DNA of 64,000 bases from Trachythela sp. YZ-2020 (taxonomy: Eukaryota > Cnidaria > Anthozoa > Malacalcyonacea > Clavulariidae): contig JADLSH010000382.1 of assembly GCA_016169945.1 (NCBI GenBank), forward strand, positions 3,286,001 through 3,350,000, written 5' to 3'. Shown here piece by piece: positions 7,501-59,021 of the stretch; position 1 is the stretch's first letter; each line of letters starts with the position of its first letter. The translations under genes were made by a program, and so were the position numbers. Under the pieces are notes generated by a model, which did not search any database, was not told where the DNA came from, and was given only the letters and a program-made list of their open reading frames with translations.

Positions 7501-10500
7501 CATTTGATTAACAGAAATCTTCATTCAAGATTACTTTTCTTATAATTGTTTTTCTAGCCTAGAAACTTTTTCTTGTTTTAAGAATATTTTCTTGTCAAGA
7601 TATTTTATCAAGATAATTATCTTGCAGAAGGGACGAGATGTTTTCTTAAAACAAGATATTTTTTCTTAAAACAAGATATTTTTTCTTAAAATTAGTTTTT
7701 CTAGTCTAGAAAAGTTTTCTTGTTTTAAAAAAATTTTCTTGTCAAGATATTTCAACAAGATAATTATCTTGTAGAAGGGACGAGATAATTTTTCTTAAAA
7801 CAAGATTTTTTTTCTTAAAACAAGTTTTTTTTTCTTAAAACAAGTTTTGAAAAATTTGCAGTGTAGCATACAAATGCTACATCTTGCCCACGGCCACGCA
7901 GTCCCCAAGGCACTCTAGTCTCTAATATAATTTCTTTCGTTATCTGTTAAACTATTTTTACCGAAATGTAACATGTTAAAAGAGAAAGTACATTGTGCAT
8001 GGTTATCATAGTTTATTCAGCAGGTAAAACAGAAGTACAAGTAAAGTTAAATTGGCCGCCATGTAATGAAACATTATTGTTGCTATTACAAAAATAATAT
8101 AACTTTATTTTTTATCTCTTGTGAAAATTTTTGACTTTAAAACGATTTTGGAAAAAACTGGCAGTTTTGAGATGGGTTGGAAGTTGATGCGAGGGCAGGA
8201 AAGATTACGCTGAATTTTACCTGCCCGCGCCTCAAACTGCCGGCTATAAGCAGGCTACACTATAAGGATTCCTTTATGTATTTCTAGTTTCTTTCGCTTT
8301 CTTCGGAGGTTTTATTCTATGAATAGTGCATGTTAAAACCCTAAAACAGCAAGGAGCTAGTTTAAAGCTTAAAGTTGCAATGTTTGCATTCTTGTTTTAC
8401 ATAATTGTTATATAGTTTTAGGCTAAGTATAAGATCGGGACAAAAATCGAAACTTGTACACAGCAACTTTACACCTGACCAAGTTGCAATAATCTTACTT
8501 TCGTTCGCAAATCGCGTATTTTCAAAAGCAAAATACAATCCACAATGAGTGTTGCACTTGTGAGTTGTGTATTATGTGCAATCTCTGGATGACTTCAAAC
8601 CAGTCTAAGTAATTTTCCAACGCGGTCTTAAGGCAACAGCGGCTAGGCACAACACTATGTCCAGCTCTTACTTCGTTCCAGTCCTGATTCACTACTGAGC
8701 CCATAACTATCTAAATATATTTCAACTTCGAGAAGCTGCTCACTTGACGCTAATGTAATTGATGCAGTTAAAGTCAAACGACAGCATCTGCTTGTTAATG
8801 GAAAGATACTGACTTTCAAATTCAATGGCTAGACGAGCTGCTTCCGCGATTGTTTTAATTTCTAAACAATGTCAGTTCAACACATACAACGTCATTATCA
8901 GGTTGCAGTGATTCTGGTAGCATCTTAACAAGGGACTTCCTGTCAAGTCTTCCTGTTTAGGATCTTTTTTGAATGGGGGTAGAAGAAGGCTTATAGCTGG
9001 GCATAGGATACCACAGGCACCTTTAACATGTGTTTGAACCTCCAGGACTTGAATAAATTCCTTTTTGTAGAAATCCTCGAGACTAAGATGAGTTGCTGTT
9101 TCTGGTCTCTCATCGACTTTTCTTGACGGACGTCTGGTACGATGATGTCGTTGATACTCATCAATAGTATTGACTGCATGGCGTTATGAAAAAGCTAAAG
9201 CTGCATTGATTTGGTTGTTTAGGTTTTCTCCATCATCGCGTATAAGTGGTGTAGTATGGCAATGGTTGCCTTGGCAGGCTCGAGAGTATCAGCAATGTTG
9301 ATATCGACGTTCTGAACTTGACCATGAACATCACCATGACAACAAATTCAAAAGATCTTACTCTTGCAAGAAGATTATCTGCTTTCGCTGTGGTCTTGGT
9401 GTCATCTGAATCCTCCAATTCGTCAAGCCCTTGGGCAATTTCTTCAAAACTCGACCAGACAGATTTCTCAGCTCAATTGCTCCTTTCTACTGGTCTCTTT
9501 GTACTGGACATGAAGAAGACAAACAACTCCTGTACTTGTCATTTGTTAAATAGTGACATAGCTTTAATTGCTATCTTTCTGCTTACACGTGTGAATACGC
9601 TAGCCAATGCGTGGACTGTAAATTCTCAGGTTATGTTGATAACATATTGTCAAGGAACTCTCTTCTTGTCGGTCCAAATTTACAAACAAATCCTATATTT
9701 GGCTTATAGCAGGAAATCGGGACCGACTTTAGATGCGGTCTTAAGGTGGTCCAATACAAAAAAAATAATTTTCCATCTTTTATTACTATTGAATCTCTAC
9801 TGCTAATATGTTGTTAGGCTCGACACTGTGACAAAAAAATACGTTGCTGCAAAACAGTGTTGCCATGGTTACCGAGATAAAGCACCCCCTGTGGTGAAAT
9901 TCGTGCAATTTTATAAACACAATAACTAAATAAGCATTAATAATAAAATTCTGGAATAACTTTTATTTACTAGCAAATAACATTGTCTAGGGGTTGAACT
10001 AAAACAATCAACATTGAAGCATTATCACCAGTTTTACAGGTCAAAAACTGGAAAGGCATTTGTCGACTCAATTGGAAACTGTCGCCACTTGAAAACTATT
10101 CAACATAACTCAATTATTTTAGTTTACAACCTGGAGCTTGATGTGATGAGTCTATGCTGAAAATTTCATCAAGATAGCTACAATACCTCTTCAGATATCC
10201 TGCGCGCAATAATGGAATCGCTAATTTTTGCTTATTCGAGAAAAATGCATTTAAAGTTCAATGTTCGGTTTATGAACATGATGGTCACATTAAGGTGGTC
10301 TTATACATTGAAAACTATTTTTCCTAATTTAATACTTTTTCCTCATTTTTACTCTAATATTATAGAACATGAGTGGCTGACACAAAATCACTCACTGTTA
10401 GTACAATTTGTGGATTAGTGTTACAATGTTTAGTGATAGATAGATAGTTGATTATAGTTTATATATTCGGTATATGAATGTGCCCATATAGATATTTGGA

Positions 10501-24100: not shown

Positions 24101-26953
24101 TCATCAAAAGCTTAGTTCGTAAAATTTTACTAAAAGTTAGGTTAAGTCGTAAAATAAAGTTCATATACGTACAGTTTGAAAGTTTTGATATAAGATTATG
24201 AAAAGTTATTTAATTTAAGTTATGAACAATTTTGAATACTGATCGAATAAGCATTAAACCGACTCGACAAGTGCGACAACGCCTTAAATCAACAGATATA
24301 GAGAGCTGGTACGAGTTATCAACGCCCATCACCACTTCTACATCTCAACGCTGATTGGCTGACTTGGAATCACATCCCTCGCCAGATCACGTGTACCAAG
24401 ACCCCTTAACCGTTACTATAAAAGGGCGAACCCAGCTAAGTTCAAGTCAGTGGATTCAGAGTAAACGAAGGAAGAAAAGAAGAAAACGTTATAAGCTGAA
24501 CATTTTAGAACAATTATATATATTGATAACAAATATATTAAAGTCATAAAGCCTCGTAACATGTTTATTGACTTGTTTTCAATTTTGTTACATTTAGCCA
24601 CACCCATCTATAACTACACAAAGTCTGGAACGCAGAAAGAGAGAAATAGCGACGTTCCAGATGGTAAGATTGCTCTGTTGCATTCACAAGGAATAATAAT
24701 ATACCATTTACCTTGTGTATACGAATTTTAGAAATATCCATACTTAGAAATATATTACATTATTTTTGTAATATTTTTTACAGTTTTGGCTTCTTTTATT
24801 GCCAAACTTATAACACAATTTGAGGAGAACTGGTGAAAATAAATAATATAGATACAGTAATTCTCTAAGTGTGAGTCTAGACTTGCTCCAAGTCTGTCTC
24901 TTAAAGGGGTTTTTATTGGTGTGTTATAAACTGGGGGGTTAAATGATTGGGAGGTTATAAAGGGCGCAAATAAATGTGGGCGGGAAGAAATTAAGGCGGG
25001 GAGCGGGCAGGCGGTAGGCGAGTTGCGTTTATAATTTCGTGCGCATTTTATAACTCTCCAATACTTTATAACTCCCCAATAAAAACTCTTTAAGAGACAG
25101 ACTTGGAGCAAGTCTAGTGGTTGTCCTAATGTACTATTTGATTATTTCCCGGCGTTTTTGTTAAACAAAAGGTAAATTTCAATATTCAATAAACTTTCAA
25201 AAGCGAAGGGTCGTACACGAGCTGTACAATATCCATAATGATTTCGTCAACGTGAACGTGTTTAATCTTCTACAGGTTGTTCATACACAAACCACGGCAG
25301 TTCAGTGTGATGTAATGGTTACCGCATTGAACATATTTCTTATCTCATTCTGTAGATCCTGTGATCAATAAGTTGGTTTTCTCGATCGTTATTACAAGTA
25401 TAGCTGTTGTTATTCTCGCCATTCTTCTTCTTCTTTACAAAAGAAGACCGAGTATTAATAAGAACATCAGAATGTGTGAAATTCACGGAAAGGGTAAGAG
25501 GTTTTAAGGTTTGCATGGCGAAACAAATGTCTTAATTGGCTTAACTTACTTTAGAAGGTGAATGCATGGTTGGTCATTTTGATAAGTTTTAAAATATCGA
25601 TGGATTAAAATATGGGATATATGTTTTTTCCAATATAAACTTCGAAACTTTGATCAAAACTAACGACTGCATGTAACGTAATACTACAAAACATAGTGGG
25701 GGATCTATTTTGGGGACATAGTATATATTAACTACTTGCTAACCGAGAGTGAGGGCTGTACGGGAGAATATTAAACAGAGGTCTTGCTGTATTAACCGAT
25801 AATACAGCAAGACCGAGGTTTAATATTCTCCCGTACAGCCCGAACAGTCGAGGTTAGTAAGTTGTTTATTATATGGCAATTGATTAATTGAGTAGTTATC
25901 TGTAACAGTGGAAAACATTCGCAGATTTGTCATGCGAAAGCAAAGGTCAAAGTCCAAAAGCCGGTTCATTTTCAAAATATCAATGTCATTCGTACAAATG
26001 CATCTGGCTATGTAAAACACTACTAGATACAACACGTTTTTATAAAATATTAACACAAAAATAGAGATATTTAATAATTTAATAACAGTTTTTCGAAAAT
26101 AGCAGAAAACAACTCGGAGAACAAGCTGCTAGTTCAACTCATTTGATAAGTCATTTTTTGTTTACTCTTTAGACTTTAAATTAATAAACAAAAGCAGACT
26201 ACGAAATTATCTAAATACCTAAGACTGGGTCGCTGTTTCAAAGTTATACTTTATTCAAATGTTTTAAAAACAAGCACTTGCATGCCATATAATAAATATA
26301 TATTAATGGCATTGAACTTTCTTAGCCAATCAGATTATATATATATATTTTGATGGTATTGAACTTTCTTAGCCAACCGGATTATATATATATATATATA
26401 TTTTAATGGCATTGAACTTTCTTAGCCAACCAGATTTTTTGATGTTATATATACATTATATATCATAGGTGCTCCACATTATATTTCCTACAACGTGGAC
26501 AACAAAAGCGAAGCAATAGATATAGCGACGTGGCTTCAAAATAAGAAGATTAATGTGATCATAAATATATTTTCCCTCATCAAAACCAATCAACGAGCTT
26601 GGAGTGAAGAACACTTACTGGAGGCTGAAAAAATTATCATGATTATCACTCCAAAATATTTGGAAGTTTGCAATTTACATCATTCAAAGTCGAATAAGGA
26701 GAAAAAGTTTTCATTTAATGATGAGCTTTGTTATAATGAAATTTCTTTAATAAGGAATAAATTGGCAGAGAAGCTACTGGCGTCAGATAAATTCATTGGA
26801 ATACTTATTGATACAGAGAAGAAAGATTTGCCACACTGGATGTCGCAATTAAATTGTTACAAATACAAGAATAGAAAGTTGGAAGAAGAGATTTTAAGAA
26901 TGCTTAAACCATGTCCTTCCTTTAATAGCAGTGTATTAAATAACTGTAATTGA
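4444..26953 (+). CDS. IL-17-receptor-like transmembrane receptor with SEFIR domain (14 candidate exons)
   Basis: A single-pass receptor assembled by eye from GT-AG exons whose phases agree: 4444-4555, 16633-16685, 16894-16945, 17897-17947 (doubtful), 18162-18293, 18397-18519, 18732-18811, 21238-21315, 21472-21565, 22316-about 22504, 22768-22848, 24598-24663, 25356-25493, 26469-26953. Order: signal peptide, basic and Ser/Thr-rich segment, Cys-containing ectodomain, Thr-rich stalk, transmembrane helix with RR stop-transfer, SEFIR domain, stop TGA. About 570 residues. SEFIR domains of IL-17 receptors bind the SEFIR of adaptors such as Act1, so a signalling role at the plasma membrane is the natural inference. 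The 12 kb first intron and later introns are full of transposons. The exon 10 donor is uncertain: AG|GTTAGG at 22481 is the better site but gives the wrong phase. Small missed exons are possible. Confidence 0.75.
4556..6424. other. First part of intron 1, no gene seen
   Basis: AT-rich intron sequence. Around 5342-5420 a short motif TGCAGTATTG recurs several times. No open frame of credible composition. Confidence 0.4.
6425..7863. mobile_element. Non-autonomous CACTA/EnSpm-type element with TATCTTGTTTTAAGA subterminal repeats
   Basis: The ends are CACTGGAAATTCTTCAAAAC and the inverse of CACTGCAAATTTTTCAAAAC, flanked on both sides by TA. The first and last several hundred bases are packed with degenerate copies of TATCTTGTTTTAAGA-like units in both orientations (6450-7010 and 7550-7860), the subterminal repeat architecture of CACTA elements. 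The middle has no coding capacity. Confidence 0.75.
7864..8739. other. Intron sequence, no gene seen
   Basis: No repeat structure or coding frame that I can support. Part of intron 1 of the SEFIR receptor. Confidence 0.4.
8740..9490 (-). pseudogene. Degenerate hAT transposase fragment (DUF4371/ZMYM1-like)
   Basis: Read on the minus strand, 9490-9240 gives VWSSFEEIAQGLDELEDSDD followed by AKADNLLARVRSFEFVV. This is the helical region before the insertion domain of hAT transposases of the DUF4371/ZMYM1 group. In another frame 9180-9000 gives HAVNTIDEYQRHHRTRRPSR and LSLEDFYKKEFIQVLEVQ, which fits the R-rich and (D/E)xYR blocks further along the same family. Frames change and stops intervene, so this is a dead copy inside intron 1. 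Family placement is from pattern memory. Confidence 0.45.
9745..11125. mobile_element. TTAA-flanked element (Kolobok- or piggyBac-like MITE)
   Basis: The left end TTAA|GGTGGTCCAATACAAAA and right end TTTTGTATAAGACCCCC|TTAA are inverted repeats bounded by TTAA at 9741-9744 and 11126-11129. A second, better-matching left end (TTAA|GGTGGTCTTATACA) lies at 10290, so the actual unit may be 10294-11125, with 9745 belonging to another truncated copy. No transposase is present. Confidence 0.5.
11126..11962. other. Intron sequence, no gene seen
   Basis: Contains a G10 run near 11175 and a purine-rich GGGGGGAGGG stretch near 11315. Nothing else recognised. Confidence 0.4.
11963..12090 (+). repeat. tRNA-derived SINE copy (partial)
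   Basis: CGTGGGTTCAATTCCTGCC is a degenerate box B of a tRNA promoter (GGTTCAATTCC). It is followed by CAGAGGACCTAGTGTTGC and TTTTCGCAACCGTTCCTGG, matching the SINE cluster at 40137-40985. It ends at the (AT)n run at 12078-12107. The box A half is missing or unrecognisable. Confidence 0.6.
12078..12206. repeat. (AT)n microsatellite followed by a hairpin
   Basis: About 30 bp of AT dinucleotides leads into an inverted repeat: TTTATCAGATTTAAAACA and TGTTTTAGATCTGATAAA around a loop with GAGGTGCAGCCGA. Similar hairpins recur as short foldback elements in animal genomes. No function is claimed. Confidence 0.6.
12907..12966. repeat. Short inverted repeat
   Basis: TTAACCCATTAGTTGGCA and its near-inverse TGCCAATTAATGGGTTAA are separated by about 25 bp, with CCAATCAAG/CCAATCCAATCAAG just outside on both sides. 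Probably a small MITE remnant. Confidence 0.5.
13670..13959. mobile_element. MITE built from a palindromic GACGGGAAACTCGTC unit
   Basis: Both ends read GATTCATATTA(G/T)RG inward from each side (left as AATTCATATTATAGG). Between them AGACGGGAAACTCGTCT and its inverse recur about ten times, some degenerate (GACGGGAATC). The unit is itself nearly self-complementary. No coding capacity. No target duplication is obvious. Confidence 0.65.
13960..16632. other. Last part of intron 1, no gene seen
   Basis: A motif TAGACGTGGGCCCGT occurs at about 14670 and 14875, with a partial inverse TACGTCTAGGAAAA near 14713. A palindrome of TAACTCTATATATA type lies at about 15860-15912. No convincing open frame. 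Confidence 0.4.
16633..17947 (+). CDS. Exons 2-4: short basic and Ser/Thr-rich ectodomain exons
   Basis: Exon 2 (16633-16685) has a good acceptor (CTCCTGCAG) and donor (GTAAGT) and encodes a basic piece, VRVRRDVNATPQTIERN, with a possible N-glycosylation site (NAT). Exon 3 (16894-16945) follows TTTTTTCTTCAAG and encodes a Thr-rich piece, TQTSTQITTTKRPLSSH. Exon 4 (17897-17947) is phase-symmetric and also Thr/Ser-containing, but its acceptor tract is weak; skipping it leaves the frame intact. Between exons 3 and 4 lies the nested MITE pair at 17123-17773. Confidence 0.5.
17123..17773. mobile_element. MITE with about 95-bp terminal inverted repeats, 8-bp target duplication
   Basis: The ends CAACCTCGTTCCAAGGCTC and the inverse of CAACTTCGTTCCTAGGCTC begin diverged arms that also share CTGCTAAAATCTAGCAGATT. 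GGTGGATT flanks both sides (17114-17121 and 17774-17781). The 8-bp duplication fits a hAT-type origin. It interrupts intron 3 of the SEFIR gene and is itself split by the 17274-17625 insertion. Confidence 0.75.
17274..17625. mobile_element. hAT MITE nested in another MITE, perfect 8-bp TSD
   Basis: The element starts CAGGCCCGTAGCTGG and ends CCAGCTACGGGCCTG, exact 15-bp inverted repeats. TGGCGGAG flanks it on both sides (17266-17273 and 17626-17633). Long C and G runs follow the ends. No coding capacity: 352 bp. This defines the order of events: outer MITE first, this one second. Confidence 0.9.
18162..18811 (+). CDS. Exons 5-7: extracellular domain core
   Basis: Three exons at 18162-18293, 18397-18519 and 18732-18811 join in phase (1-1, 1-1, 1-0). 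They read as a beta-rich domain with paired cysteines: CKRPQTSP, WWSAVITWEIPKPQ, GFCPGTSGLLIEYRS, DGLYTFSIGN, DCVGYLVQWDNPSRIFC. The pattern of W, C and alternating hydrophobics is what I would expect of a fibronectin-III-like IL-17R ectodomain, though homology cannot be proved by eye. The exon 6 acceptor may be at 18396, 18402 or 18423; all are in frame. Confidence 0.65.
18812..21237. other. Intron 7, otherwise no gene seen
   Basis: Apart from the foldback at 19176-19316, this is AT-rich intron sequence with only short open frames of unlikely composition. Confidence 0.4.
19176..19316. repeat. Foldback with telomere-like TTAGGG core
   Basis: The arms GTCACGATTTAGGAACAG... and its inverse (19280-19316) share about 36 bp, including TTACTATTTTTAGACTTTT. 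The loop side holds degenerate TTAGGG units (19210-19255: three exact runs, others TTAGGA, TTAAGG, TTGGGA). It lies in intron 7 of the SEFIR gene. Confidence 0.75.
21238..22504 (+). CDS. Exons 8-10: second part of the ectodomain
   Basis: Exon 8 (21238-21315, phase 0-0) follows TTTCTTTAG and ends GCG|GTAAG. It encodes NVTSYLIDSSKGWEKYGD, with an NVT glycosylation site. Exon 9 (21472-21565) follows a run of T and CAG and encodes FPLPPF and RSFQPPGCSGFRSMIF. Exon 10 (from 22316, acceptor TGTAATAG) encodes ELTLYVIPGLYKN, two close cysteines (ACSSHSLC) and an NVT site. Its end must leave phase 1, which points to GTATTT at 22505. The better-looking AG|GTTAGG at 22481 would break the frame of the next exons. 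Confidence 0.6.
21590..21804. repeat. Foldback element beside exon 9
   Basis: TGTATAATATTTGGATCATTC at the left and the inverse at 21766-21790 begin arms that also match in AAAATCCTCATCT. It starts about 25 bp after the exon 9 donor, so it inserted in the intron next to the splice site. Likely a MITE. Confidence 0.6.
22026..22077. repeat. About 50-bp near-perfect palindrome
   Basis: TTTAGACTGGTCTAAACATA and its inverse are separated by a few bases (CATGTGTATG). Each arm contains its own smaller palindrome TTTAGACTGGTCTAAA. Possibly a minimal MITE or a cruciform-forming site. Confidence 0.75.
22220..22282. repeat. Alternating GC/GT (purine-pyrimidine) tract
   Basis: About 60 bp of GTGC/GCGC alternation, a classic Z-DNA-prone sequence. 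It lies 34 bp upstream of exon 10 in place of a normal pyrimidine tract, so it may influence that acceptor. An open frame through it on the plus strand is low-complexity upstream of 22316. Confidence 0.8.
22768..24663 (+). CDS. Exons 11-12: Thr/Pro-rich juxtamembrane stalk
   Basis: Exon 11 (22768-22848) follows TTTTTCTTTAG and encodes PAETTTINPPLQTTWTSTGH, a mucin-like stalk. Exon 12 (24598-24663) encodes TPIYNYTKSGTQKERNSDVP. Both are phase 1-1 and could be skipped without a frame change. If exon 11 were not spliced at 22849 or at the second GT at 22858, it would run to a stop within about 20 bp, which would make a secreted receptor form. That is speculation. Confidence 0.6.
23245..23761. 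mobile_element. Palindromic Tc1/mariner-type MITE
   Basis: The ends TACCGGGTGGGG and CCCCACCCGGTA are flanked by TA on each side. The arms (over 200 bp each) are inverse copies through ACGACTGTTTGATTTAGTAT, TATCTCAGTCAATATTGCAT and TAGGCC, so nearly the whole element folds back. No coding capacity. Confidence 0.75.
24050..24560 (+). promoter_or_regulatory. Possible solo LTR or promoter with TATA box
   Basis: ACTATAAAAGGGCG (24414-24427) is a strong TATA box, with CACGTG about 25 bp upstream. The stretch ends AAGCCTCGTAACA, similar to the LTR end at 2711-2720 (GTTCGTAACA). I could not find the left boundary or a target duplication. It lies 38 bp upstream of exon 12 of the SEFIR gene and could drive a truncated transcript containing the transmembrane and SEFIR exons. 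Confidence 0.3.
24877..25117. mobile_element. 241-bp MITE with about 50-bp inverted repeats
   Basis: CTAGACTTGCTCCAAGTCTG opens the left arm and its inverse closes the right. The match continues through TCTCTTAAAG and TTTTTATTGG. Between them is GC-rich unique sequence. Target duplication unclear. Lies between exons 12 and 13. Confidence 0.75.
25356..25493 (+). CDS. Exon 13: transmembrane helix
   Basis: After the acceptor TCATTCTGTAG this phase 1-1 exon encodes a 23-residue hydrophobic segment (LVFSIVITSIAVVILAILLL) bounded inside by YKRRP, a positive stop-transfer signal. The short cytoplasmic tail contains IRMCEIHGK, and the donor is GTAAGA at 25494. Extracellular N-terminus and cytoplasmic C-terminus follow from the signal peptide and the basic residues. 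Confidence 0.8.
25739..25857. repeat. 119-bp foldback
   Basis: Arms of about 55 bp: CTAACCGAG..., GGGCTGTACGGGAGAATATT, GGTCTTGCTGTATT and their inverse, with only AACCGAT-type spacing at the centre. Transcribed, it would make a long hairpin in intron 13. Confidence 0.75.
26304..26446. repeat. Three tandem copies of an about 50-60 bp unit
   Basis: The unit GGCATTGAACTTTCTTAGCC (second copy GGTATTG...) occurs three times, separated by (TA)n runs of growing length, ending about 25 bp before the acceptor of exon 14. Confidence 0.8.
26469..26953 (+). CDS. Exon 14: SEFIR domain and stop
   Basis: The exon follows ATATCATAG and encodes about 160 residues to TGA at 26951. The domain opens with HYISYNVDNKSEAIDIATWL (beta strand A and helix A of a TIR-like fold). 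It continues with INVIINIFS and then EKIIMIITPKYLEVC, the strand-then-S/TPKY signature typical of SEFIR domains of IL-17 receptors and Act1. It closes with LPHWMSQL and a helix EEEILRMLKP. TIR domains have a comparable fold, but the ITPKY and late W-x(3) patterns fit SEFIR better. Only 24 bp separate the stop from a transposon end at 26978. Confidence 0.8.
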
Positions 26954-26987
26954 TCACTCTTACTATAAGAGGGTCTTCCCTTACGAA

Positions 26988-27262
26988 AAAACCACATGTA
27001 GAAACCACATGTGAAACCACATGTGGTTCACATGTGAAATTGGAACATGTGGTTTTCATGTGGTAATGTCACATGTGGTTCACATGTGGTAACATGTGAT
27101 TCACATGTGGTAATATCACATTCCCATGTGTTTTATATGTGATATTACCACATGAAAACCACATGTTCCAATCACATGTGAATCACATGTGATTCACATG
27201 TGTCTTCAAAACAGATGAATTTGGAACAACCACATGTGATTCACATGTGGTTCACATGTGAC
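26988..27262. repeat. Left subterminal CACATGTG array
   Basis: CACATGTG or one-base variants recur every 10-20 bp, joined by short spacers such as AAAC, GATT and GGTAAT. Each 8-mer is its own inverse, so either strand shows the same sites. Likely binding sites for an element-encoded protein. Confidence 0.85.
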
Positions 27263-27781
27263 CAAATAAGTAATACTTCATATTATACCGAAGTAATACT
27301 TCATACTACCAGTCACACATACATAATAATGGATGCACACATAAAACACTTGTACGTCAGTAAAATGATATCTGCAAATATATTACTCATGATAAAATGG
27401 AAAATCATACATTAACTGGAAACCCATATACAGCTAATTCAAAAGATTATCCTTTGCAAACCTTAAACACTAATACCTAAACTCGGTTGTCATAAGCGCG
27501 CAAAAATAATGGGAGCATCGTTTCATCTGTTTAGAAATCACATATGGGCACCATTTCTTAGAGACATATGGTAGTAATAATTAAAATATCTCCTCACGGG
27601 CAATTCATTCAAATAGCTGCAATATTCAACTTCCAAGCCTGAATCTGGTTCTCCCATTAAGCTTTGCACGCTTAGAGTTTAAATTTCTCAAAGGGCAACC
27701 TTTTTTTAATAAGCTGTTAATATACATGAGAGCAAATATATGATATATGAGAGAAAATTCTTAAATATCCTTCAATTTCTC

Positions 27782-30700
27782 TTAATTATTAATTGCCTGC
27801 ATCTCCTGTCTCTTTCTACTACCATCCATTGAATTTCTTAAGTCTTTACATTTCTGTGCCATCATTGATTTGACGATGGCATCAGTGACCTCTGGAAACC
27901 TTTTTATGACAAAAGCTAGAACAATAAAACACTATTGTTAATACGGTATGACCAATTTGGTTGGTAAATTCCAATGTAAATGAAGGACCAAAGTAAAGGG
28001 GGTTTATTTAGGAACAAAATTTATTCTCAAATTGATTACAATTTTTTTCACATTGATTTCAAATAATAGATACCACATTGATCAAGTTTCAGTTACCAGT
28101 CCCAACAGTGCTAATGACACCCTTATCAACAACCAGGAATTACCATTACCAACTTGCACTCAACATGATTTGTAAGCTTTGCAACTGCCGCCAATTATTG
28201 AATTGTTGCAAGTAAAACAAAATGACCATTTGTAAATGATATTTTTTAGCATTGTTATTTGAAATAATCAGACAACCAAATTTTCAAGATAGCCATTGCA
28301 ATGTACAATGACAATTTTGTAAGTTAAGACACAATCAGAAACTCTAGCCTCCACTTAAGAGTTGTTTCAGAACATTTGTTTCATAGACTACATTTCAAGT
28401 CTTTTAAGATATGGAAGAAAATCCTACAGTATACTGTTGCTAATGCCAGACAATTTATCTTCTCAGTGTTATCATTCTTTGAGAGCACTTGTAAAATTTG
28501 GTTGCATTGAAAGGAGACTACTAGCATTATTGTGCTACATACTAAAACAACTTTGGAAACATGCCAAGCTAACAAGCTGTATCAAAGTTACAAAGGTAGC
28601 ATGTGTATATACATACCATCAATTGGTAAAAGAAGAAAACACAATTACTAACCTATAATCAGTTCAACCTTGGTGCGATCTAATGCAGGCCGTCCCTCTT
28701 TGCTTTTTCCTGTCACAGAGGATTCTGCTAAAACCTTTCTTTCAAAAACAGCAGTCATGAGGTTTACCGTCATTTTTTTGAAATTAGGTGACCTTATAAC
28801 CTCACCCATTTGGACTGAGTCAATATAATCCTAGGAAGTAAAATTAAATATAAGAGAAACACAATTATTATTGAAAGGCAAGCAATCTATGAATCACATC
28901 TAGTCAGCTTAAATTTTGGGAGGACATTAATTCCCAGCCGGTAGGGCTAATTTAAATTATTACAGTTTTACAGATTAGGTTACATGGCATTTGGTTATCA
29001 GAACAAAATGTTAACCACTTAACCCAATGCAATGACAACAGCAGTGTTAGCCACTTTATATATTTTACTCTGTCTAAAGCCAGATTATTTTATTACTCGC
29101 ACCGGGAATGGGTTAATAGATATTATTGACATAGTTAGGATCAAAGTAATGCGCTTTACACAATGTACAAACTCAAACATACCATTAACTTTGGTGAATT
29201 TGACCTTCCATTTCTTCAACATCCTGCTCCTCTGAGGAACAGCTGCTTGGGGTAGCCGACGATCTTGCAGATTGAGTAGATGGTCTTGTGGCAAGAGGAG
29301 ATGGTCTTGTGGCAAGAGGAGATGGTCGGGGGCTAGGCGTTTTGGGGTTAGAAACAACAAAGAACTTCGGTTGGTTAATATCATTCTTTTTGTTGGTTTC
29401 AGTAAGGGCTGCCAAAACTGCCTCCTTTATCAAACCAGGCAATCCTAAAGTAAACATGATGGTAATGATTTATTGATTTCATCAGTGAAACCTTATTCTC
29501 AGCAAAGTTTTATCACCTTATCTGCAGCAAAGTTAATCATGCTGCAAAAAGATCAGAGGCAACTACAACTACAAGAAAATGTTTTATTACAGGACTCACT
29601 TTTATGAAGTCTTGAAACTTCACTTTGTAGTTTCTTTACTTCCTCCTGTAATAGTTTGTCTGAAGAAGCTGGTACCGGTACACTAGGTGTTTCACCTGGA
29701 AGCTCATCGGAGTCATACATATACTTGTCAATATGTTCTTCACTGGACTCGTCAGACTCAACAGGGTGCCAATCCTGCTAAGTACTTGTTTATAGGCTTT
29801 CCTCTCTGCAAGTTTTTAACATCTTTATTTTTCTATGAAAAGATTATAAAACATATAATTAGTCTTTAGAGTTCTATGAAAGGTTAATCTGGAATATTTG
29901 GTTAGGTAGATAATCCAAGTGGATATTCCAAATATTCTTATCACCAAATATTCCAGATCAAAATTTCCACCAAGTGATTAGTGCAATAAAAATCCTTCAA
30001 AGTTTATTCTATGAAAGGCAGCTCATCTAAATGAATGGCTTAGGTCCATTGTTGTGGAGCTATCATTAGCAGATTTCATTTCAATTAATCTTTCTATAGA
30101 TTACAAATTAAATCTGTTGAGTTACCAGTATGCCAATGTAAGCCTTGTGGTTTCTACCAAAGACCATAACAATTAGTCTCCAGCAGCTACAGTGCAATGA
30201 AAGTGGCCCTGACAATTACTAATCAATTCTATCTTAGGTAGATGATGGCGAGAAACACAAGGCTTTTCAATTGCTTATGGTAACTTCAGATAAAATGATA
30301 TTTCAAACATAACAAACTTCAATACGTGGCCAGTGTTCTGTGTTGGTAGCTGATAATAGCATCAGAAAGCAGCACAATTTTCTACTCACTAGGGCAATTC
30401 CACGTGACTGACGTTACATTTGAAGGATTTTTCTAAGAAAAACACATCATATATTTTTGGCTGTTGCTTGCTAACTCGCATTTTTCTTATAAACTTAAGA
30501 TAATTATATCCTCTATCTGATGCAAAAGTTTAATTAAATTAAATTAATGTTTTTTACTGTTGCCGGCATTTAAGTGACTGTGACTGATGTTACACAGAAT
30601 GGACAAAGCCTTTTATTACAAATTTGTCATATAAGTTTGTCTTCAAACATGACAAAATTTTCAAAATCAATATTTTTTAATTTAAAATATGATTTCATTG

Positions 30701-31784
30701 TCTATAACAATAATAACTTTATTTATTAAAATTGCAAATTATATTTTTACATAATTTGAACTATGTCATGGAATTGCCCACTACCCAAACTATACAACAG
30801 ATTCAACGTTTGAGTTTAGGCCCTTTGTCGTGAATAAGTGTGAAGGGCCTTAGCTCTAAAAGTCAAATCTGTTCTATCATTTAGGTAGTGAGTGGAAAAT
30901 TTTGCTGCTTTCTGATGAATATATCAAACATAACACTGGTCAACTTCATCATCTTAGACAACATGCATATATAAAGTTTAATTGATAATGGTATCAAAGA
31001 TTTTGCAAACCTTCATAATCTTTGCTGGTTTCTTATTGCCTGCACTAGTCTCTTCCAACTGCAGCCTTTTAGCGAAAATCTTACGACTGTGGAATCATTG
31101 CCAGTCTCCAAATCTCCATTATTAAGGAAATCCAATTCGCTTTTCATCAGATTAGTTTTGCTATCTGCAGTGAAATAAGCACAAATATTTTACTAGTATG
31201 TCTGGTATTTGGGGAGAAGTATATACAGCATAGTGTAGTCATTATTCTCGATGACGTCAGATTGAGAAATCCGAGCAAAAGACTAGGACGAGGCAACAAA
31301 CATGTGGCTGACGAAGCCATTATGGCAAAAGAATAGCATGGAATTGCATAGAATATCAATATTTTTTGCTATTAGAAGCCTAAATGCTAAAACTTCACTT
31401 GGTTTTACGACAGACATATTTATAGACAGTATATGACCCTATTTTATAGTCACAAACGTGTCATTAATATTCAACTGGCAACAATATATATCGCCGGGGA
31501 GCGTGTCTGTATTTGTATTGAATGATTAAATCTCATTGTTAAAACTGTATCATTACGGACTACCTATAGATTTAATGAAGATATGTAGAGATCCTTACCA
31601 CTTGCTGCTAGAACTCTTGCTAAATATGATTTCCAGCCGGCCTTAGGCGCCTTCATTGCCGCATCGCCAAACATAACCATGCCTTCCTTCTCTGGGTCCT
31701 AAGCATGCTTTTGTCCTTAACATATTCTTCGGCCAAGATGCTTGTCTCGTTGGATTCAATCCAGTGAATCAGCACGTATTTCAT
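27782..31784 (-). CDS. BEN-domain protein encoded by the transposon (with frameshifts)
   Basis: Minus-strand exons with good splice sites: 31784-31599 (starts MKYVLIHWIESNETS), about 31168-31007 (lysine-rich, KKPAKIMK), 29774-29600 (acidic, then a coiled coil LLQEEVKKLQSEVSRLHK), 29444-29205 (GLPGLIKEAVLAAL, then Pro/Ser-rich with two PSPLATR repeats), 28830-28653 and 27915-27782. The last two form a BEN domain: FKKMTVNLMTAVFERKVLAE, SVTGKSKEGRPALDRTKVEL, then AFVIKRFPEVTDAIV and KCKDLRNS, stop TAA. BEN domains bind DNA, often short palindromes, so this protein could bind the CACATGTG arrays; that is inference. Exons 1 and 2 each need a frame change, so this copy is probably dead. Known BEN proteins are mostly host chromatin factors. 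Confidence 0.7.
30392..30779. mobile_element. 388-bp MITE nested in the BEN-gene intron, ACTA target duplication
   Basis: GGGCAATTCCA at the left and TGGAATTGCCC at the right are exact inverted repeats, with ACTA on both flanks (30388-30391, 30780-30783). AT-rich interior, no coding. The target CACTCACTACC(C/T)AAA sequence itself recurs at 30862-30895 (inverted) and 32868-32905. Confidence 0.7.
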
Positions 31785-32015
31785 TTTGATTGGCACAATA
31801 ATAGATCACTCAAATAGCGAGAAAACGAATTTAATTTTTTGGTTTGTGCTACAAAGCAAAACTGAGTTCTCATCTGTCGAATACAATTTTTTTGAAATTT
31901 TCAAGTCACGCGCGCAATGCATGAACATCAACAACGCGTGACGTCACCACACACGTCACGCGTGGGTTTTGGGCTGTTTCTCCGGTCGGAGTCAGTTCAC
32001 ACTTCAAAACCAAAC
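31785..32015. promoter_or_regulatory. Shared divergent promoter inside the transposon
   Basis: The two element genes start 231 bp apart, facing away from each other. The interval holds a perfect CRE-type TGACGTCA (31939-31946) within a larger inverted pair ACGCGTGACGT / ACGTCACGCGT (31933-31972). This is the only GC-rich, palindromic part of the region, so it is the likely bidirectional promoter. Confidence 0.5.
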
Positions 32016-33836
32016 ATGGCGGATGCTGTTGAGTCTGTCGCTGACACTGTTGGAAGAAAAGGGGCCTTATAAACTATACAGCCTAAATCCAGAGGATGAA
32101 AGTTTTAACGCCAGAATACCAAGAACGACTAAATGGCGTCGTCTTCATTGTGATACAGACGTTGCGTCCTCAGAACAAAATGATGACGATCAAACTTCGT
32201 CAGCTGAACAGCATGAAGAGCTACATTCACGATGTTCTGGTAATGAAGATCAAGATCTTTCAGGTAGGAATCTTATTACACCACGGCCTCAACCAGTCCT
32301 CATTCAATTCAACAATTATTAAATAAATTAATGTTTTTTTAGGTGATGATTGCAATGATGATATTTATAATGGCGAAAATCCTGATGGATATGCCCAGCC
32401 TCAAGATGGTAGTGGTGATGAAGACGAAATCGTAAGTATCTATAAACAGCCTCTTGAAATAATTATAAAATAAAAGGGCATGACAAATATTATTACCGTA
32501 TTGACTTTTTAATGGTCAAAATTTTATTTGCTGGTTTACAACTAAAACCAAGCTCTCAATCAGGAACAAGCTGATTGCCAAGCAGACATTACTTTTTTAC
32601 ATGGGGTATATCAATACATACATCAATATACCTGCTAACCATGGTCAGCATATGATCTGTGTTTATGCATGTTGGTGGTCCTTCCTCGTAACATGTCCAG
32701 TGTCTGAGCTGGCCATCCAGCCGTCTTTTGGACGGCCTACTTTCATGCTATAAACATGCTGGAAAGCAAGTTTATAATTTTCAAGAGATGATTATTGTTA
32801 AATCACAAACCTTAACATATGGCCAGTGTCTGGAGCAGACAATAGCATAAAAATGCAGTAAATGTTCCACTCACTACCTAAACGATATATAACAGATTTC
32901 TATGTTTCGAGCAAATGGGGTTGGTAGAAAGCACATGTGCTTTTCTACAAGTAAATAAACATAACATGACAAAGTAAAAACCAATCAGATTGATTTAATG
33001 AAAACTGAGAGTAAACAAAAAATTATAATCACATATATTATATACAAGGGTTAAAAATAAGGATTATGCAAGAATGCATGCATGGGGAAAACAAACAGCA
33101 TGATACAAAAAAGTAGGAATAAACCTGTCAACCATCGCTGAGCAAGTCAGACGGTCACACCAAATCAAACTAAAATGCTTATTAATACCAAACCCTATTT
33201 TTATTCCTTAAGACCCTGTAGCATGCCTATTCTATCTTGGGAATGGGATAATTAACCTATAAGATTAAGTTAGCCTAGTTGCCAGGCAATTTGTACCAGT
33301 CATCAGATACAAAATTAAAACATTGAAATACCACACATCCAGTCTGAGTCAAAGAAAACCTTAATTACAAAGAGAGGTTTGTTTTGAATTTGAATGGTGA
33401 AAAATGCATAAACCATAACTTTATCACCTCCTTTCATAAAGCTTTAAATTTCAACACAAAGGCCAATTTTTTCACAAAGGCCATTGTTGGTGGTAAAGTG
33501 CTACACTGTCAACAGTACACCCGTAGCTCTCGAAGAAAGAACTCTATTGTTGGTCTTGTGGATGGCACAGTTGTGGAGCTGAAAGTATTTGCTGTTGTGA
33601 AAGGGTTGTGTTTTGCTTTTGCCAGACTTGTTTATTTAAACCGACCCTCCTGGCTAAGAACAGATTGTGAATGTGGTAGACTCTGTGGTAACATTTGGAA
33701 AGTCTCAGAAATTGAAACAGCATTGCAAATTGTGAGGTTAGGTGACATTTCAGACAAGTTTGTCTTAATTACAGATCAATCCATGAGTGTGAACACTATT
33801 ATCTGTCAATTACCGAACACTATAGATAGAGATTAA
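32016..33836 (+). CDS. Transposase-like gene, N- and C-terminal parts only
   Basis: Exon 1 (about 32016-32263) encodes KLYSLNPEDESFNARIPRTT and a Glu/Asp/Ser-rich stretch. Exon 2 (32343-32431, phase 1-0) continues acidic. Exon 3 (about 33462-33836) begins NFFTKAIVGGKVLHCQQYTR and SSRRKNSIVGLVDG, then LCFAFARLVYLNRPSWL, to TAA. The HCQQYTR-RKNS segment resembles the C-terminal tail of animal CACTA-like transposases as I remember them. No catalytic D-D-E core is present between exons 2 and 3, so the gene looks internally deleted. ATG at 32016 (MADAVESVADTV) runs out of frame; ATG at 32023 is in frame. Classification is tentative. Confidence 0.5.
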
Positions 33837-34159
33837 TTCTATGTAAATTAGTTAATACATGTGTATATATTGTATATTTTTGGTCCTGGGCATTGACTTA
33901 AAACTGCAACCGGTTGTGGAGTTTCGACGTGGGCGAATGAGGTTATCCTTAGTCACAACTACCTCCAGGTCACCCTTAGGCAAGGTGTAGCACCTGTAAG
34001 CCTCCCCAGCTAGTAGAGTTACACAGATGTTACTAAATAATTTTGTCCTTGCTACTAAATAAAATACACTGAATTTTATGCTATGACAGTAAATATATGT
34101 TCTGTGTTGTGTTGAAGTTAAACAAAATGCATGTTTAAATCAATTGTTTTTACATGCTC

Positions 34160-34385
34160 ACATTCTATTAAACATTCTATCGAATATTACATAAGTTTCA
34201 TTATTAATGAAATATTCTATAGAATATGTTATTGAATGTTTCATATGACTGTGCAATAGAACATTCTATAGGATCTGTAAATCTTCACTAGAATATTCAA
34301 TAGAGTAAATGACCCAAAATAATATTCTATAGGATTTAGAATATTCTGTAGAATATTCTATAGGATTCTAATAGAACATTTTGGC
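34160..34385. repeat. AT-rich array of AGAATATTCTATAG-like palindromes
   Basis: GAATATTCTATAGAAT and close variants recur about eight times. The unit is self-complementary. It lies between the plus-strand gene and the right CACATGTG array of the transposon. Confidence 0.6.
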
Positions 34386-34620
34386 AATGGATATATTCAT
34401 ATATATTATTGAAATAATTATTATCATTCTCCTAATTAGCCGGATTTTGTTTTCCAGAAAGAACTTGAATTGCCATCATGTCACATCCCATGACTTAAAA
34501 GATGTGAAGCATCTTTACTAATTCTGATATGATCTTCACTTTTATAATGTTTTGTTTGGCTCAACAGTTTAGCACTTTTCTATCGGCTTTCTTTCCACTT
34601 GTAGATTATTAGTAATATCG

Positions 34621-35029
34621 TGCTCACATGTGGTTCACATGTGCTTCACATGTGATTTTCATGTGCTCATATCTGATTTCGATATGCCCACATGTGGTTC
34701 ACATGTGATTCATATGTGAGCATATCGAAATCACATATGAGCACATGAAAACCACATGTGAATCACATGTGAATCACATGTGAACATACTGAAATCACAT
34801 ATGAGCACTTAAAGTCACATGTGAATCACATGTAAATCACGTGTAACCACATGAGAATCACATATGACCACATGTGAATCACATGTGAGCTTGTGAAAAC
34901 CACATATGAGCAAATGAAAATCACATGTGAATCATATGTGAATCACATGTGACCACATGAAAATCACATATGACCACATGTGAATCACATGTGAAACACA
35001 TGTGAAACACATGTGAAACACATGTGTTT
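34621..35029. repeat. Right subterminal CACATGTG array
   Basis: Longer than the left array, with more than twenty CACATGTG/CATATGTG sites spaced mostly 10-20 bp (spacers AATCA, GAAA, ACCA). It ends in three GAAACACATGTG units before TTTTTTTCGTAAGGG. Confidence 0.85.
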
Positions 35030-35041
35030 TTTTCGTAAGGG

Positions 35042-36159
35042 TTCATACGGGTTTTAAGATGCCAGTTGAAGTTCAAACCAGTTTATCACCTATCAGCAGT
35101 GTATTTTGTAAGATGTTGGTTCAAAATTTGCGTGAATTACTTTTTCGTCGTTTTTTAACCACATATTTTGTCTGTTGTCAGTGAAAATTAGGCAAATGTC
35201 GGTAGTCATCATTACAGCTCATTACAGTTCATTCCATTCTCTATTATTAATTACGGATAATATTCTAAACTGAGAGATCAGTATTGCTTGCATGGTTTGG
35301 TTTAAAAGTGGAACAGTATAGTTTTAAAATGAACATATTACAGAAATATTCTTATGCGTGCAAAACGGCATAAATTCTACAATAACTGATTATCCTATTA
35401 TAAATAGAGTATATACTATTCCCAATTAATGCTATTATAGAAATATGTATGTTATAGGTCAAGATGGAAAATTTGAGGAACAATGTAAAAGAAAAAAGGG
35501 TATTATATAGTAATGATTTTTATCCTGTGATCAATCCCGACTGAACTGTTAAGTGTAGAAGTTCGTCCGTGTGTAAATAGCCGGACGAAATTAGTTCCCT
35601 CGCCTGGAACGGCAATTTGAGCTATTGGCTCGAGGATAATATATAATTATTGTAATTAAACTAAAAGAAGATTGAAAGAAGAGAGAAACTGCCATAAAAC
35701 ACGGCGAACTAAAGATGGAGTTTTAAACTTTAGAGCGCAAAGCATTGTTGTGTTTGAAATATTATATTGCCATCGCGCTGTTACCTGTTAGCTTGCAGCC
35801 AATCAGCGACAGGTATCTTAAAATGACGTAATTATTTTGCTACTCTTTGATCTCTATATATACCTGGAATGATGATTATTTCAAGATGGCGGACTACTGA
35901 AGGGCGAACATTGTAAACATGAGCATGTTTCTTAATGTTACGTTGAAAATTATACATCAAACTAACGAAAGTTTTATTTGCTGTACTATTTCGAATATGG
36001 AAAATGTCGAGGGAGTATTTTTAGTAAGTGCTGGAATCATGGAAGTATTTTGAAAACATTTTACTTTGTGGAAAAAAACTTGACTTGATTGACTTGACTT
36101 GAGTTGAGCAATATCGGTGCATACCATGACTACGCAAGTTGAGCAATATCGGTGCATCC
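35042..36159. other. No gene seen; probable displaced 3' flank of the SEFIR gene
   Basis: This is the sequence that would follow the SEFIR stop codon if the 26978-35041 insertion were absent. I see no coding frame. CAAGATGGCGG near 35882 resembles a YY1-type promoter element, as found at the 5' ends of some LINEs. Confidence 0.35.
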
Positions 36160-42521: not shown

Positions 42522-43857
42522 TTAGCTGCTATCACTTTCAAGAGGTAATAGTCGTCGTAGTTTCTTAGCTTTCGGGCTAGCAGCTATCATTGTGTTTGAC
42601 GCAGACGATGAAGCGTTGGATATGTGGATGTTAAATGTCCCTCCTGTAATGGAATTGCCCTGGAAAAGCGATGAGGATGGATTATCAGCACCCTGCTTCA
42701 AGTTAAACGAGATTGTCTCTTGCGAAGATAGCGACGTTCGCGCGTCTCTCACATTTGGCACCGAAGACAAAATCGAAGAAATATCTTGTTGTTGTTGTTC
42801 TCTCAACGAGCTGTAATTGTTAACAGACTGCAAATTCTTGTGACCGGTTATTTGTACAATTTGGGTGGGAGGAATATTGTTATCTTGTAGTTTTTGAACA
42901 AGTGTCTTTCGAGCGCTGTGGTTTGTTATTCGCTTGTCCTTTCCAATCCCAGCCAGCTGTGCACAATCTTTCATGAGAGAATTTATCTTGTTGACACCCA
43001 TTGGTTGAGGTTTGAACCATTTCACTCCAGGCAGATCTGGTTTACTGGTATTTACGTGGTTTATGCCGAGGTAAAATGGAGCATTGCTATCCAAAAAGGA
43101 CTCCGGTCGTTTGACTTTGTACAGTTTGTACAAAAATATGGGATGATTTCGTTCAGGGTCAGCCGAGAGGTTTTCATACATACGCGGTTTCACCGATCTT
43201 CTATTAACGGGATTTTCACCGGTTCGGGTCTTAGTTTGCCTTTCAGTGTTGTACTCAAGGTATTCTTTGCCGTTTGTATCTTTCTTGAGAATAAGGTCTC
43301 CCCATTTTAAATCACGCTGTTCTTTGCCGCCGCGTAATCCAAAATGTAAACAGTTGTTGTACCAAAGAACATTTATAAGAGCTTGAGGGCTATTGCAGCC
43401 AAAATTACCGCTGTTGTAAAGCATTTCTATCTCTTCTTGGGTCAGAGAAGCTGCTTCGAATGGTTTGTTCCCTTTTCCATGGCGCTTGAGTTGTTTTTGT
43501 TTCGACTTCAGTGTTTCTCTTGTTCGGGCAAAACTTTGTCCCGTAATTACAGACTCGCAGTATTTATGTTTACTTAGATAACGTTCGACCGAGGACAGAA
43601 ACCCTCGAAGAGTAGTTGGCTCGTATTCTTCTCCATTTTTTTTCCTGACAGCCAGCAAAAATTAGCCTGAAAACAGACCTACGTTTCGCCCGCCCTAAAA
43701 TTCACGGGTCAAGGAATGGCGAAACGTAGGTCTGATGAAAATGTTGTCAAAAGTGCATTCCGCCCACTTTACATTTTGTAATAATTAACAATGAGATTGA
43801 CACATTTAACACCTAAAAATAGAAGTTTAGAATAGTTTTTTGTAAACAATATCGAAT

Positions 43858-53207: not shown

Positions 53208-54509
53208 ATATAACAGGAAATAATAACTTGAACAAGATACTTCACTTGACAAGTGAATATGTACAGAGTCTAAAATTATACTGTATGTCTGCTAAACAAA
53301 ATGTTAACCTGAAGTATTCATAATTAATTATAATTGAGTTTTATGATACTGAATAAAGGGGTGAAGAGGGACATCCAAGCTCAATTCTCCCTTGCGAAAA
53401 AAGTCTATAGGCGGCCTATAGGTGCCTATACGGTATGTTCCAATTCCCTTTAGAGGTCTATAGGCACTTATAGAGCTCTCTAGCCTTTTAGTAGAAATTG
53501 TGAGGTGTCTATTGCTTTTCTTGCATTCTGATTGGTCCAAATTGAGCCTCTAAAAAGTGATAGTCACTGCCCAGTGACTATCACTTTTTTTCAAAATGGC
53601 TTCTTCGCGCAAGCTGCCGAATTTAAAACAAAAATCGGTTTTTTGAGCCTGATTCAAAGTTTTAAATGAAAAAACTGCCGCTAAATTCAAGGAGGATATA
53701 TTTTTGACATTTTTAAAGGTAAGCGATAACATATACACTATTTTTCTTCCATGCAAGGCAGCGTTTTCTCGCTGTTGAAATGTACATGTATAAAACTTTT
53801 TCCGTACGGCTCAACCACTCGCTCAAGTGTTTATTTTGAAAATTATTCGTTTTATCCTAATTTATATCGTTATATTCAGCAAAAACCTAGCTATGATATA
53901 TTTTTAAAACCATTCTACTTTGTATTTGAGCCCTTCCAAAGTATTTTTGTTACGAAATTGTTTGTTTTTGTTTCGCTTCGATATGTTTTTGACACTCGTC
54001 TTTTGCCGGCATGTTTTTAATAATTTTGTCCTATAGCCTTTTCAACTGACCTCATAACTTTCTGTGTTTGTTTTTCTCTTTGAAATTTCTACTAAAACAA
54101 TTAGTCGTCTCAGGCTCGGTGATTACAAGCCTATAGTCACTTCGCCTTCGGCTCAGTGACTATAGGCTTGTAATCACCTCGCCTTCGGCGACTAATTGTT
54201 AAATAGACCTCCTTATAGGTCACCTATAGAAAATGTTCCAATTACCTATAAAAACCTGATTTGTGCCAAATAGATTGAATTGGGATAATTTTTCAGTTCA
54301 CCTTATTTTGCACAAGTCTCAATTGTGCGGTGTTCCAATTCTCCCCCTTCTATACATTTTTTATGTTACTCATGTTTGCAAGGGAAATATGAATATCCAA
54401 ATCATGAAATATCACATACAGTCAAGTGGTACTGTACTATAAAAACTACTGCATATTAGCATGAAATGATTTGGAAACACAAATGTACATTGTACACATA
54501 GTTACAGTA
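53208..54509. repeat. Noncoding centre of the P element with two hairpins
   Basis: Hairpin 1 at 53552-53590: AAAAAGTGATAGTCACTG with its inverse. Hairpin 2 at 54098-54198: CAATTAGTCG...GATTACAAGCCTATAGTCAC and inverse, with extra GCCTTCGGC stems. CTATAGGTGCCTATACGG and ATGTTCCAATT(A/C)CC repeats occur on both sides, suggesting a small element inserted between the genes. Open frames here are not convincing genes. Confidence 0.5.
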
Positions 54510-57500: not shown

Positions 57501-57564
57501 TCCCATCATATTTCTCTCGTCTGTTTGCTCCACAATCCGGAAACACACAGTTTGCACCAGGCAT
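54510..57564 (-). CDS. P-element transposase with THAP domain
   Basis: Exon 1 (57564-57324) starts MPGANCVFPDCGANRREKYD and holds a THAP zinc finger: CVFPDC, then F-x-I, W in SAWREEV, and SICERHYRKEDI with C-x2-H. Donor A|GTAAGT joins phase 1 to exon 2 (56962-54510, acceptor TTTTTGTAG), open for 817 codons; total about 897 residues. Exon 2 has a coiled-coil region (LALQQQRLKCTQLEGELTKM), the RNase H-like core with acidic residues in VVLAFDEMKVQSKLVF and PVIVTASDGASANRK, the GTP-binding-type insertion beginning YIWLFADAPHLMKTARN, and the return to RNase H with LTNRFNQDVVEEYFGRQRSL. The C-terminus is lysine-rich, like a nuclear signal. It binds element ends, cuts and joins DNA. The frame is intact, so it may be active. 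THAP9 is the host relative. Confidence 0.92.
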
Positions 57565-57782
57565 ACAGTAAAACCCAGAGAGAATTAAAACGTAATTTGT
57601 GACAAAAAATGAATGAAACGCTTCTTTGAACATGACAACATTCTTGATAATGTAACAAGTCTGAGTAGTGTGTGCACCTACTTTAGTCACGTGACTATGC
57701 CACGCGCGATCATAGAGTTGTAATTGGATTAACACTACAGTTTCCAGACCAGTCCCTCGCCTTCTACTGACTCTGGCGAAAC

Positions 57783-59021
57783 CAAAGTTCCTGGGTGAAC
57801 GTTTTCGCGAATTTCGTGAACTTGTCGTGGACATCGCGTGGGCTGTTATTGTCAGGAGCGGAATGAGTGAAGATTTTAAACATGAGAAATTCTGAATATT
57901 TCAAAATCGCTTTTAAAGACTTTATAAATAGGAGCTGTGAGGCCAATTTTATCGCGTTTGCTTTATATAAAAGGATAAGAAGAGATATATGAGCGAAAAA
58001 AGTAAAATATAACGCGAGTTTGTTATAATTGTTGATGTATTTGTTCATGGCATATTATCATTGTTGTTTTAAAAACTGTTGCTTTATATAAATAGTCAGT
58101 CTCGTTTAATTCCAGTTTAAGTATCCTATATTTTATGTTACAAAAAGCTATAAATTAAAAGGAAAGCGGAACCATTTTTACGAGAGAATTGTATACTTTC
58201 AACCGCAAGATTTCATTTAAAAAAGGAATTTATAGGTAAATGCAGTTTTATGAACTTTACGAAACGTTTTATATTCAACGGACGGTTGAATTTTTCAATT
58301 TTACATTAAAATAAAATATTAGAATGCATAATAACATACCTACATGATATATTTCAGTATTCTATTGTTAAAACCATTAATATTTTAACTACATTGCCGG
58401 TTTTGTAGTGTAATTTGTACGCTAAAAACTGTAAAAAAAATTGTCTTTAACTGATCGTGTTGCCATAACTACAGTGCTTCCACAGTTTGAAACAAATTTC
58501 CATTGTTTATCCTTGCAAAAATCCTTGAAATTCCTTTATATAATTCCTTAATATTTAAGTTTTCTTCCAGTTTTCCTTTGTTTTCCTTCGAAACTATTAC
58601 AGTAATATGATTAAAATTGTCACGGCACATTTGAGATGAACGGAATCACTTAGTATTTACGTCAAGTACTCCATTTCCCTGACAAAATTTTGTCTGAAAG
58701 CCAGATAACAGACTCGGTCAGTAGGCCACTAATTTACCGAATGCCATTTCCAGTAGTAAATATTCTGGTGCAACTGCCATATTTTCCAGTTAAGAAATTA
58801 AAAGACCCTAGCTCTCGTAGCCTCTATTTACCCCTTCACGATCGCATTCTGACTAAGTCTATTCTCGTTTTGAACAAATCATCCTTTGCATGCAGATTTT
58901 CCAACGAAAAGCTTAGAAATGTTTAGGAACTGTCGTTGTTTAGCTGTGGCGAGGGGTTACTGCATGCATGCATGTATTTCTAGTCGGTCACTGAAAAGCC
59001 CCAATGGGGAGTGAGCAGAAT
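57783..59021. other. No gene seen
   Basis: AT-rich, with a plus-strand frame at 58690-58926 (78 residues) that lacks recognisable motifs. I do not call it. Confidence 0.4.

Follow-up and report, generated by a model that had tools for sequence, protein, structure and literature searches.

A BEN-domain gene and dense terminal palindromes in a CACTA-like transposon family of the anthozoan Trachythela

Maize En/Spm and other plant CACTA transposons combine a tnp2-type transposase with repeated motifs beside short terminal inverted repeats (TIRs) and a second element-encoded protein, which in En/Spm (TNPA) binds the subterminal motifs, is required for transposition and works with TNPD (PMC2613891). 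Animal elements of the TRC type, SmTRC1 among them, have CCC ends, 2-bp target duplications and a Transposase_21 domain (PMC1636069). Here we describe a transposon at positions 26978-35041 of a 64,000-nucleotide stretch of the Trachythela sp. YZ-2020 genome (contig JADLSH010000382.1; hereafter the window, whose coordinates are used throughout) that resembles both: it shares the three plant features named above as well as the CCC ends, 2-bp duplication and transposase domain of the animal elements. Unlike SmTRC1 and other animal TRC elements as they appear in the available passages of PMC1636069, its family encodes a BEN-domain protein and has arrays of the palindrome CACATGTG. We consider it probable that this BEN protein binds the ends of its own element, in a TnpA-like role, in a recently multiplied animal CACTA/EnSpm (TRC-type) transposon. 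We report directly on the element, its ends, duplications and gene layout, its recent copies, selection on the BEN exon of sister families and the agreement between BEN type and palindrome type, and we infer binding, end pairing and a role in transposition.

Other comparisons are looser. The likeness to TNPA is drawn from published descriptions. A separate, divergent gene encodes the BEN protein; TNPA and TNPD, by contrast, arise by splicing from one transcription unit (PMC1636069, PMC2613891). Arabidopsis VANDAL21 similarly has an element-encoded protein, VANC, and short-motif arrays that change together between families (PMC5735166), but it is set apart by its description: its transposase is VANA and VANC acts against silencing, whereas the present element has a tnp2-type transposase and terminal palindromes. 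The BEN proteins NACC1/NAC1 (which also has a BTB domain), Insv, BEND6 and BANP are host chromatin factors, and the portions of their descriptions available to us report no transposon-encoded BEN. Nor did titles and abstract openings on BEN domains and transposons or on animal CMC elements, or passages of PMC5704228 and PMC11075544, a scope that leaves aside Repbase reports and most subscription journals, describe a BEN gene within a transposon. The element type is known (animal TRC); what is new here is a BEN gene as accessory, together with palindrome arrays that match it.

Ends, copies and superfamily placement

The element has CCCTTACG ends and is flanked by a 2-bp target duplication, TT. 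It contains 31 of the 32 copies of CACATGTG in the window (12 at the left end, 18 at the right and one at 32932), compared with a mean of 1.05 and a maximum of five in window shuffles. These counts, the exact 14-bp TIRs and the TT flanks confirm the original prediction of a transposon at this position with dense CACATGTG at both ends; the ends, the arrays and the BEN gene that it described all stand, but this copy proved not to be full length and its BEN frame to be broken, by 1-bp differences.

In the source genome (578 Mb, 396 contigs), exact CCCTTACGAAAAAA occurs 83 times in forward and 81 times in reverse orientation, versus 2 and 1 for the reversed control, and among 100 places listed at least 14 inverted pairs lie 10.04-10.11 kb apart. 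Ten of these were fetched as full copies (10,039-10,113 bp; 99.80-99.97% pairwise identity over aligned bases), each carrying a flanking 2-bp duplication and 28-31 CACATGTG. Their alignment has 10,140 columns, with a substitution in 58 (confined to a single copy in 55) and a gap in 205 (134 beside the same base). The family has undergone a recent burst of copying, and many of the small differences in length resemble sequencing noise. The window copy matches full copy C147 with 99.4% and 99.9% identity on either side of a single 2.04-kb deletion that takes out most of the transposase exon; it should therefore not move by itself, and is a non-autonomous, internally deleted copy. Pairs of CACATGTG spaced 11 bp apart occur at 531 places in the genome, compared with 2 for the control. 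Of those 531, 50 distinct places were listed, every one of them in four elements of this family (C3, C22, C36, C42).

Full copies carry two divergent genes, the BEN gene and a CACTA/EnSpm-type (animal TRC) transposase gene. The transposase reaches Transposase_21 (tnp2) through its relatives: precomputed PF02992 matches are present on 34 of 82 homologs, and the cut-off is exceeded by P0041 and by P0030 (40% identical over 97%), while P0014 (70% identical, 19.1 bits), P0038 and the frame of a second family (F2, below) fall under it. Proteins related to this transposase are present in other octocorals and in Hydra, sea urchins and fish. Both TIRs start with CCC (CCCTTACGAAAAAA), and a 2-bp duplication was found in 16 of the 18 elements for which both flanks were read, namely the ten full copies, the window copy, the F2 and third-family (F3) elements and L061, L062 and L063. 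The plant CACTA pattern differs, since the ends here read CCCTT rather than CACTA and the duplication is 2 bp rather than 3 bp. Within the CACTA superfamily, the element agrees with the animal TRC type. A query with the last transposase exon found no copies in viral and genome contig collections. The two elements lacking a duplication, L001 (C1:40073-40156, 84 bp) and L064 (C24:1807434-1807520, 87 bp), consist of both 14-bp TIRs with a few CTATAG-type palindromes.

BEN proteins and palindromes across families

That the minus-strand gene encodes a BEN domain, as originally proposed, is supported by a Pfam PF10523 match of 43.7 bits for the joined exon frames (cut-off 23.2) and of 35.6 bits for the frame at 28648-28830 alone; the exon limits are approximate, being read from frames rather than from a transcript. 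The BEN fold was recovered by structure comparison through a relative, P0001, in whose model no N-terminal domain was predicted with confidence. The joined protein also matches DUF4806 weakly (E 0.004, under its cut-off), a domain termed a BEN subtype in a passage of PMC11075544. The human NAC1 BEN domain picks the palindrome ACATGT out of random DNA (PMC7764960), and ACATGT is the core of CACATGTG; CATG sites lack CpG, so that binding is unaffected by methylation (PMC11472053). Together these two sources bear out the preference of NAC1 for a CATG-containing site put forward in the original prediction. Contact residues of NACC1 are named in PMC11472053, but reading BEN specificity off helix 5 was abandoned, and we make no residue-level claim because two NACC1 structures give different offsets to P0001.

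BEN exons are present in all ten full copies. The original prediction had called for a check of whether full copies always carry the gene, and this holds for those examined; the members seen without it are incomplete derivatives only. Two such derivatives, of 810 bp and 2459 bp, keep both TIRs and 19 CACATGTG each. Neither is a complete element, since the shorter matches neither gene and the longer, which also lacks BEN, keeps only the C-terminal half of the transposase; they fit ends that are acted on in trans.

A BEN profile search of the genome gave 51 matches, all above the PF10523 cut-off, and revealed other BEN elements that likewise start CCCTTACGAAAA but carry different palindromes. 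Relative to the window family (F1), the F2 element (C110; 12,442 bp, duplication TA) has identical 14-bp ends, but zero CACATGTG; it has instead 32 CCTATAGG and 21 GGAATTCC, none of which lies more than 0.4 kb from an end. Its transposase is 36% identical to that of F1 over 590 positions (E 9e-104) and its BEN exon 35% identical over 49 positions (E 4e-4). The F3 element (C313; 9,037 bp, duplication AT) has ends with GAATATTC, TCTATAGA and TCAATTGA, a BEN exon detected by Pfam and a transposase 39% identical to F1 over 261 positions and 61% to F2 over 255. Both sister families share the CCCTTACG end and gene layout of F1, and differ in having CTATAG-type palindromes and another type of BEN (type B; that of F1 is type A). 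The terminal 900 bases hold 31, 65 and 25 8-bp palindromes in F1, F2 and F3, compared with shuffle means of 4.7, 5.8 and 6.3 (maxima 14, 16 and 18). In addition, an 11.2-kb structure (L065-L066, C33:1383238-1394450) has F2-type ends on both sides and is a large palindrome including its flanks, since these are perfectly inverted over 20 bp; neither the transposases of F1 and F2 nor the F1 BEN protein matched within it.

The type of BEN agrees with the type of palindrome. Among the 30 BEN loci read (L029-L058, of the 51 matches), ACATGT arrays lie on the BEN 3' side in all nine with type A, while the other 21 comprise 16 with CTATAG arrays, five with neither inside the 3 kb read and none with an ACATGT array; 16 of these 21 match the type-B pattern and five are not classed by it. 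Since the loci are copies from a small number of families, they represent few independent cases. In a sample of 38 further ends (of 100 listed), the palindrome types were separate in the first 194 bp: eight had 5-10 ACATGT cores and no CTATAG, 29 had 2-13 CTATAG cores and no ACATGT, one had a single CTATAG and none was mixed. Purifying selection acts on the BEN exon in the sister families, as judged from a 47-codon BEN stretch of six type-B loci: omega lay between 0.05 and 0.19 for 11 of 15 pairs, a single pair gave 0.81 (synonymous divergence, dS, 0.03) and three pairs were not computable; the estimate is restricted to the sister families because copies of the window family are too alike.

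What the BEN protein may do

In full copies, the tnp2-type transposase is paired with a protein that is predicted to form a long helix and ends in a BEN domain. We propose that this protein, perhaps multimerized via the helix, would coat the array of its own family (CACATGTG in F1), and that the array-bound BEN would help the transposase to find and pair both ends, as TNPA does with TNPD in En/Spm. The TnpA analogy, first raised in the original prediction, gains support because sister families pair other BEN proteins with other palindromes and because the transposase is of the CACTA/tnp2 kind; the role itself is one that we deduce. Since the 14-bp ends of F1 and F2 are identical while their transposases are only 36% identical, the TIR is apparently not what separates these families, and family identity is probably given by the pair of BEN and palindrome. 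A more tentative extension is that this pair acts as a private lock and key: the TIR and cutting machinery would hardly change, and each family would swap or evolve its BEN together with the palindrome array that it reads, so that families within one genome mobilize mainly their own copies.

Several observations weigh against these proposals. The joined transposase reading of the window family is without a Pfam match. Because BEN, palindromes and transposase all vary jointly from one family to the next, common descent of a few lineages could explain the match between BEN and palindrome. Nor are palindrome types wholly exclusive between families: a patch of CTATAG/AATATT palindromes lies just inside the right CACATGTG array in the window copy and in all ten full copies. 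It may be a relic of an earlier, replaced array, which under the lock-and-key proposal would be the array used before the swap, or it may be an inserted piece of an F3 element. One end elsewhere (C82:9073528 onward; L078 and L105) has the TIR followed by 12 CACATGTG in a TTTCACATGTGAAA context, unlike the window family, and neither BEN nor transposase was recognized within 10 kb of it. In both derivatives described above, 18 of the 19 CACATGTG lie on one side, and a full array at both ends may therefore not be needed. Finally, the right array is phased at 10.6 bp (R 0.967 over 32 sites, reached by none of 20,000 jittered arrays), but we reject helical phasing as a general rule, as R is only 0.25 at 10.6 bp in the left array and the F2 and F3 arrays are incoherent at the helical repeat.

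An alternative interpretation is that BEN bound to the arrays keeps chromatin open or blocks host silencing, as VANC does, and has no direct part in cutting or pairing the ends. VANC proteins both bind and co-evolve with short-motif arrays (PMC5735166), BEN proteins act as chromatin factors (PMC11472053) and the motifs found in these elements lack CpG. We nevertheless consider this account unlikely because the arrays occupy both termini, the place at which a transposition complex would assemble, whereas the VANC motifs are described in non-coding regions along the element. The two functions are also compatible, as TNPA is itself reported to reactivate a methylated promoter (PMC1636069).

The arrays might instead be read by the transposase or by a host factor, with BEN as a passenger or as a regulator acting elsewhere. 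The E-box consensus is CANNTG, and CACATGTG contains overlapping E-boxes (CACATG and CATGTG). In the sister families, however, the palindromes CTATAG and GGAATTCC do not conform to the E-box consensus but occupy the same place, accompanied by another BEN type that is under purifying selection, which makes such a reader decidedly improbable. Although slippage can expand tandem repeats and the BEN frame of the window copy is interrupted, it is scarcely credible that the palindromes are mere slippage products and BEN a captured host fragment, given a BEN gene at the same position in each of three element families within a single genome and in 10 of 10 full F1 copies, the low omega in the sister families and the identity of the CACATGTG core with the NAC1 site.

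Coordinates, neighbouring frames and significance

Table 1. Features of the window copy, in window coordinates.
Feature	Position	Strand	Basis
Left target duplication copy, TT	26976..26977	.	Flank comparison
Left TIR, CCCTTACGAAAAAA, 14 bp, exact inverted match to right TIR	26978..26991	+	Sequence match
Left subterminal array, 20 sites (≤2 mismatches), 12 exact CACATGTG (at 27006-27260)	26993..27260	.	
BEN last exon (approximate), C-terminal part of BEN domain, presumed DNA-reading helix	27780..27925	-	Frames
BEN exon with first 45 positions of Pfam BEN	28648..28830	-	Pfam
BEN inner exon (approximate)	29190..29448	-	Frames, full copies
BEN inner exon (approximate); corresponding middle part of relative P0001 is a predicted long helix	29600..29777	-	
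BEN inner exon (approximate); frame broken in window copy	31010..31175	-	
BEN first exon (approximate), MKYVLIHW...; open in 10/10 full copies, broken in window copy	31600..31788	-	
Transposase first exon (approximate)	32022..32264	+	Inferred from frames, position
Junction of internal deletion (2.04 kb); lost bases are 6499-8535 of full copy C147	33459..33467	.	
Transposase 3' remainder	33468..33836	+	
CTATAG/AATATT palindrome patch, F3-array-like	34211..34363	.	4 CTATAG in 34151-34400; shuffle mean 0.07, maximum 2
Right subterminal array, 32 sites (≤2 mismatches), 18 exact CACATGTG, 10.6-bp phasing	34625..35026	.	
Right TIR, 14 bp, exact	35028..35041	-	Sequence match
Right target duplication copy, TT	35042..35043	.	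Flank comparison

Within the element, an inverted repeat (30351-30926) and a further partial copy (32846-32899) are likely short repeats nested in introns. The transposon is inserted right behind a possible IL-17-receptor-like signalling gene, an open frame with a SEFIR domain (26426-26953, plus strand; Pfam 34 bits, cut-off 23) that stops 24 bases before it. Further along the window, a TIR-like end, CCCTTGCGAAAAAA (plus strand, at 53389), is followed by seven CTATAG palindromes in 996 bp (53389-54384), an inverted partner at 54371-54384 that matches it weakly, and no duplication that is clear; it is perhaps a worn miniature relative, and no tie to the element at 26978-35041 was found. On the minus strand, an 821-aa frame (54510-56975) that matches a TNP-like RNase H domain at 80.9 bits and a GTP-binding insertion domain at 52.1 bits resembles a P-element transposase, a further frame (57310-57834) appears THAP-like by eye, and an open frame at 58988-59560, receptor-like by eye, runs into a tandem array coding repeated RYVTL. 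Another minus-strand frame (42522-43658), which we take to be Crypton-like, matches DUF3504 (81.5 bits) and phage integrase (39.1 bits).

A BEN protein bound to its own transposon's ends would supply animal CACTA elements with a counterpart of plant TnpA, and one from a family of DNA-binding proteins whose complexes with DNA have been solved. Because the TIR is shared while BEN and palindromes differ, what distinguishes these transposon families becomes testable by part swaps. If the lock-and-key proposal is true, BEN proteins would recur as transposon accessories in animals besides serving as host regulators. The element also bears on the origin of animal BEN proteins.

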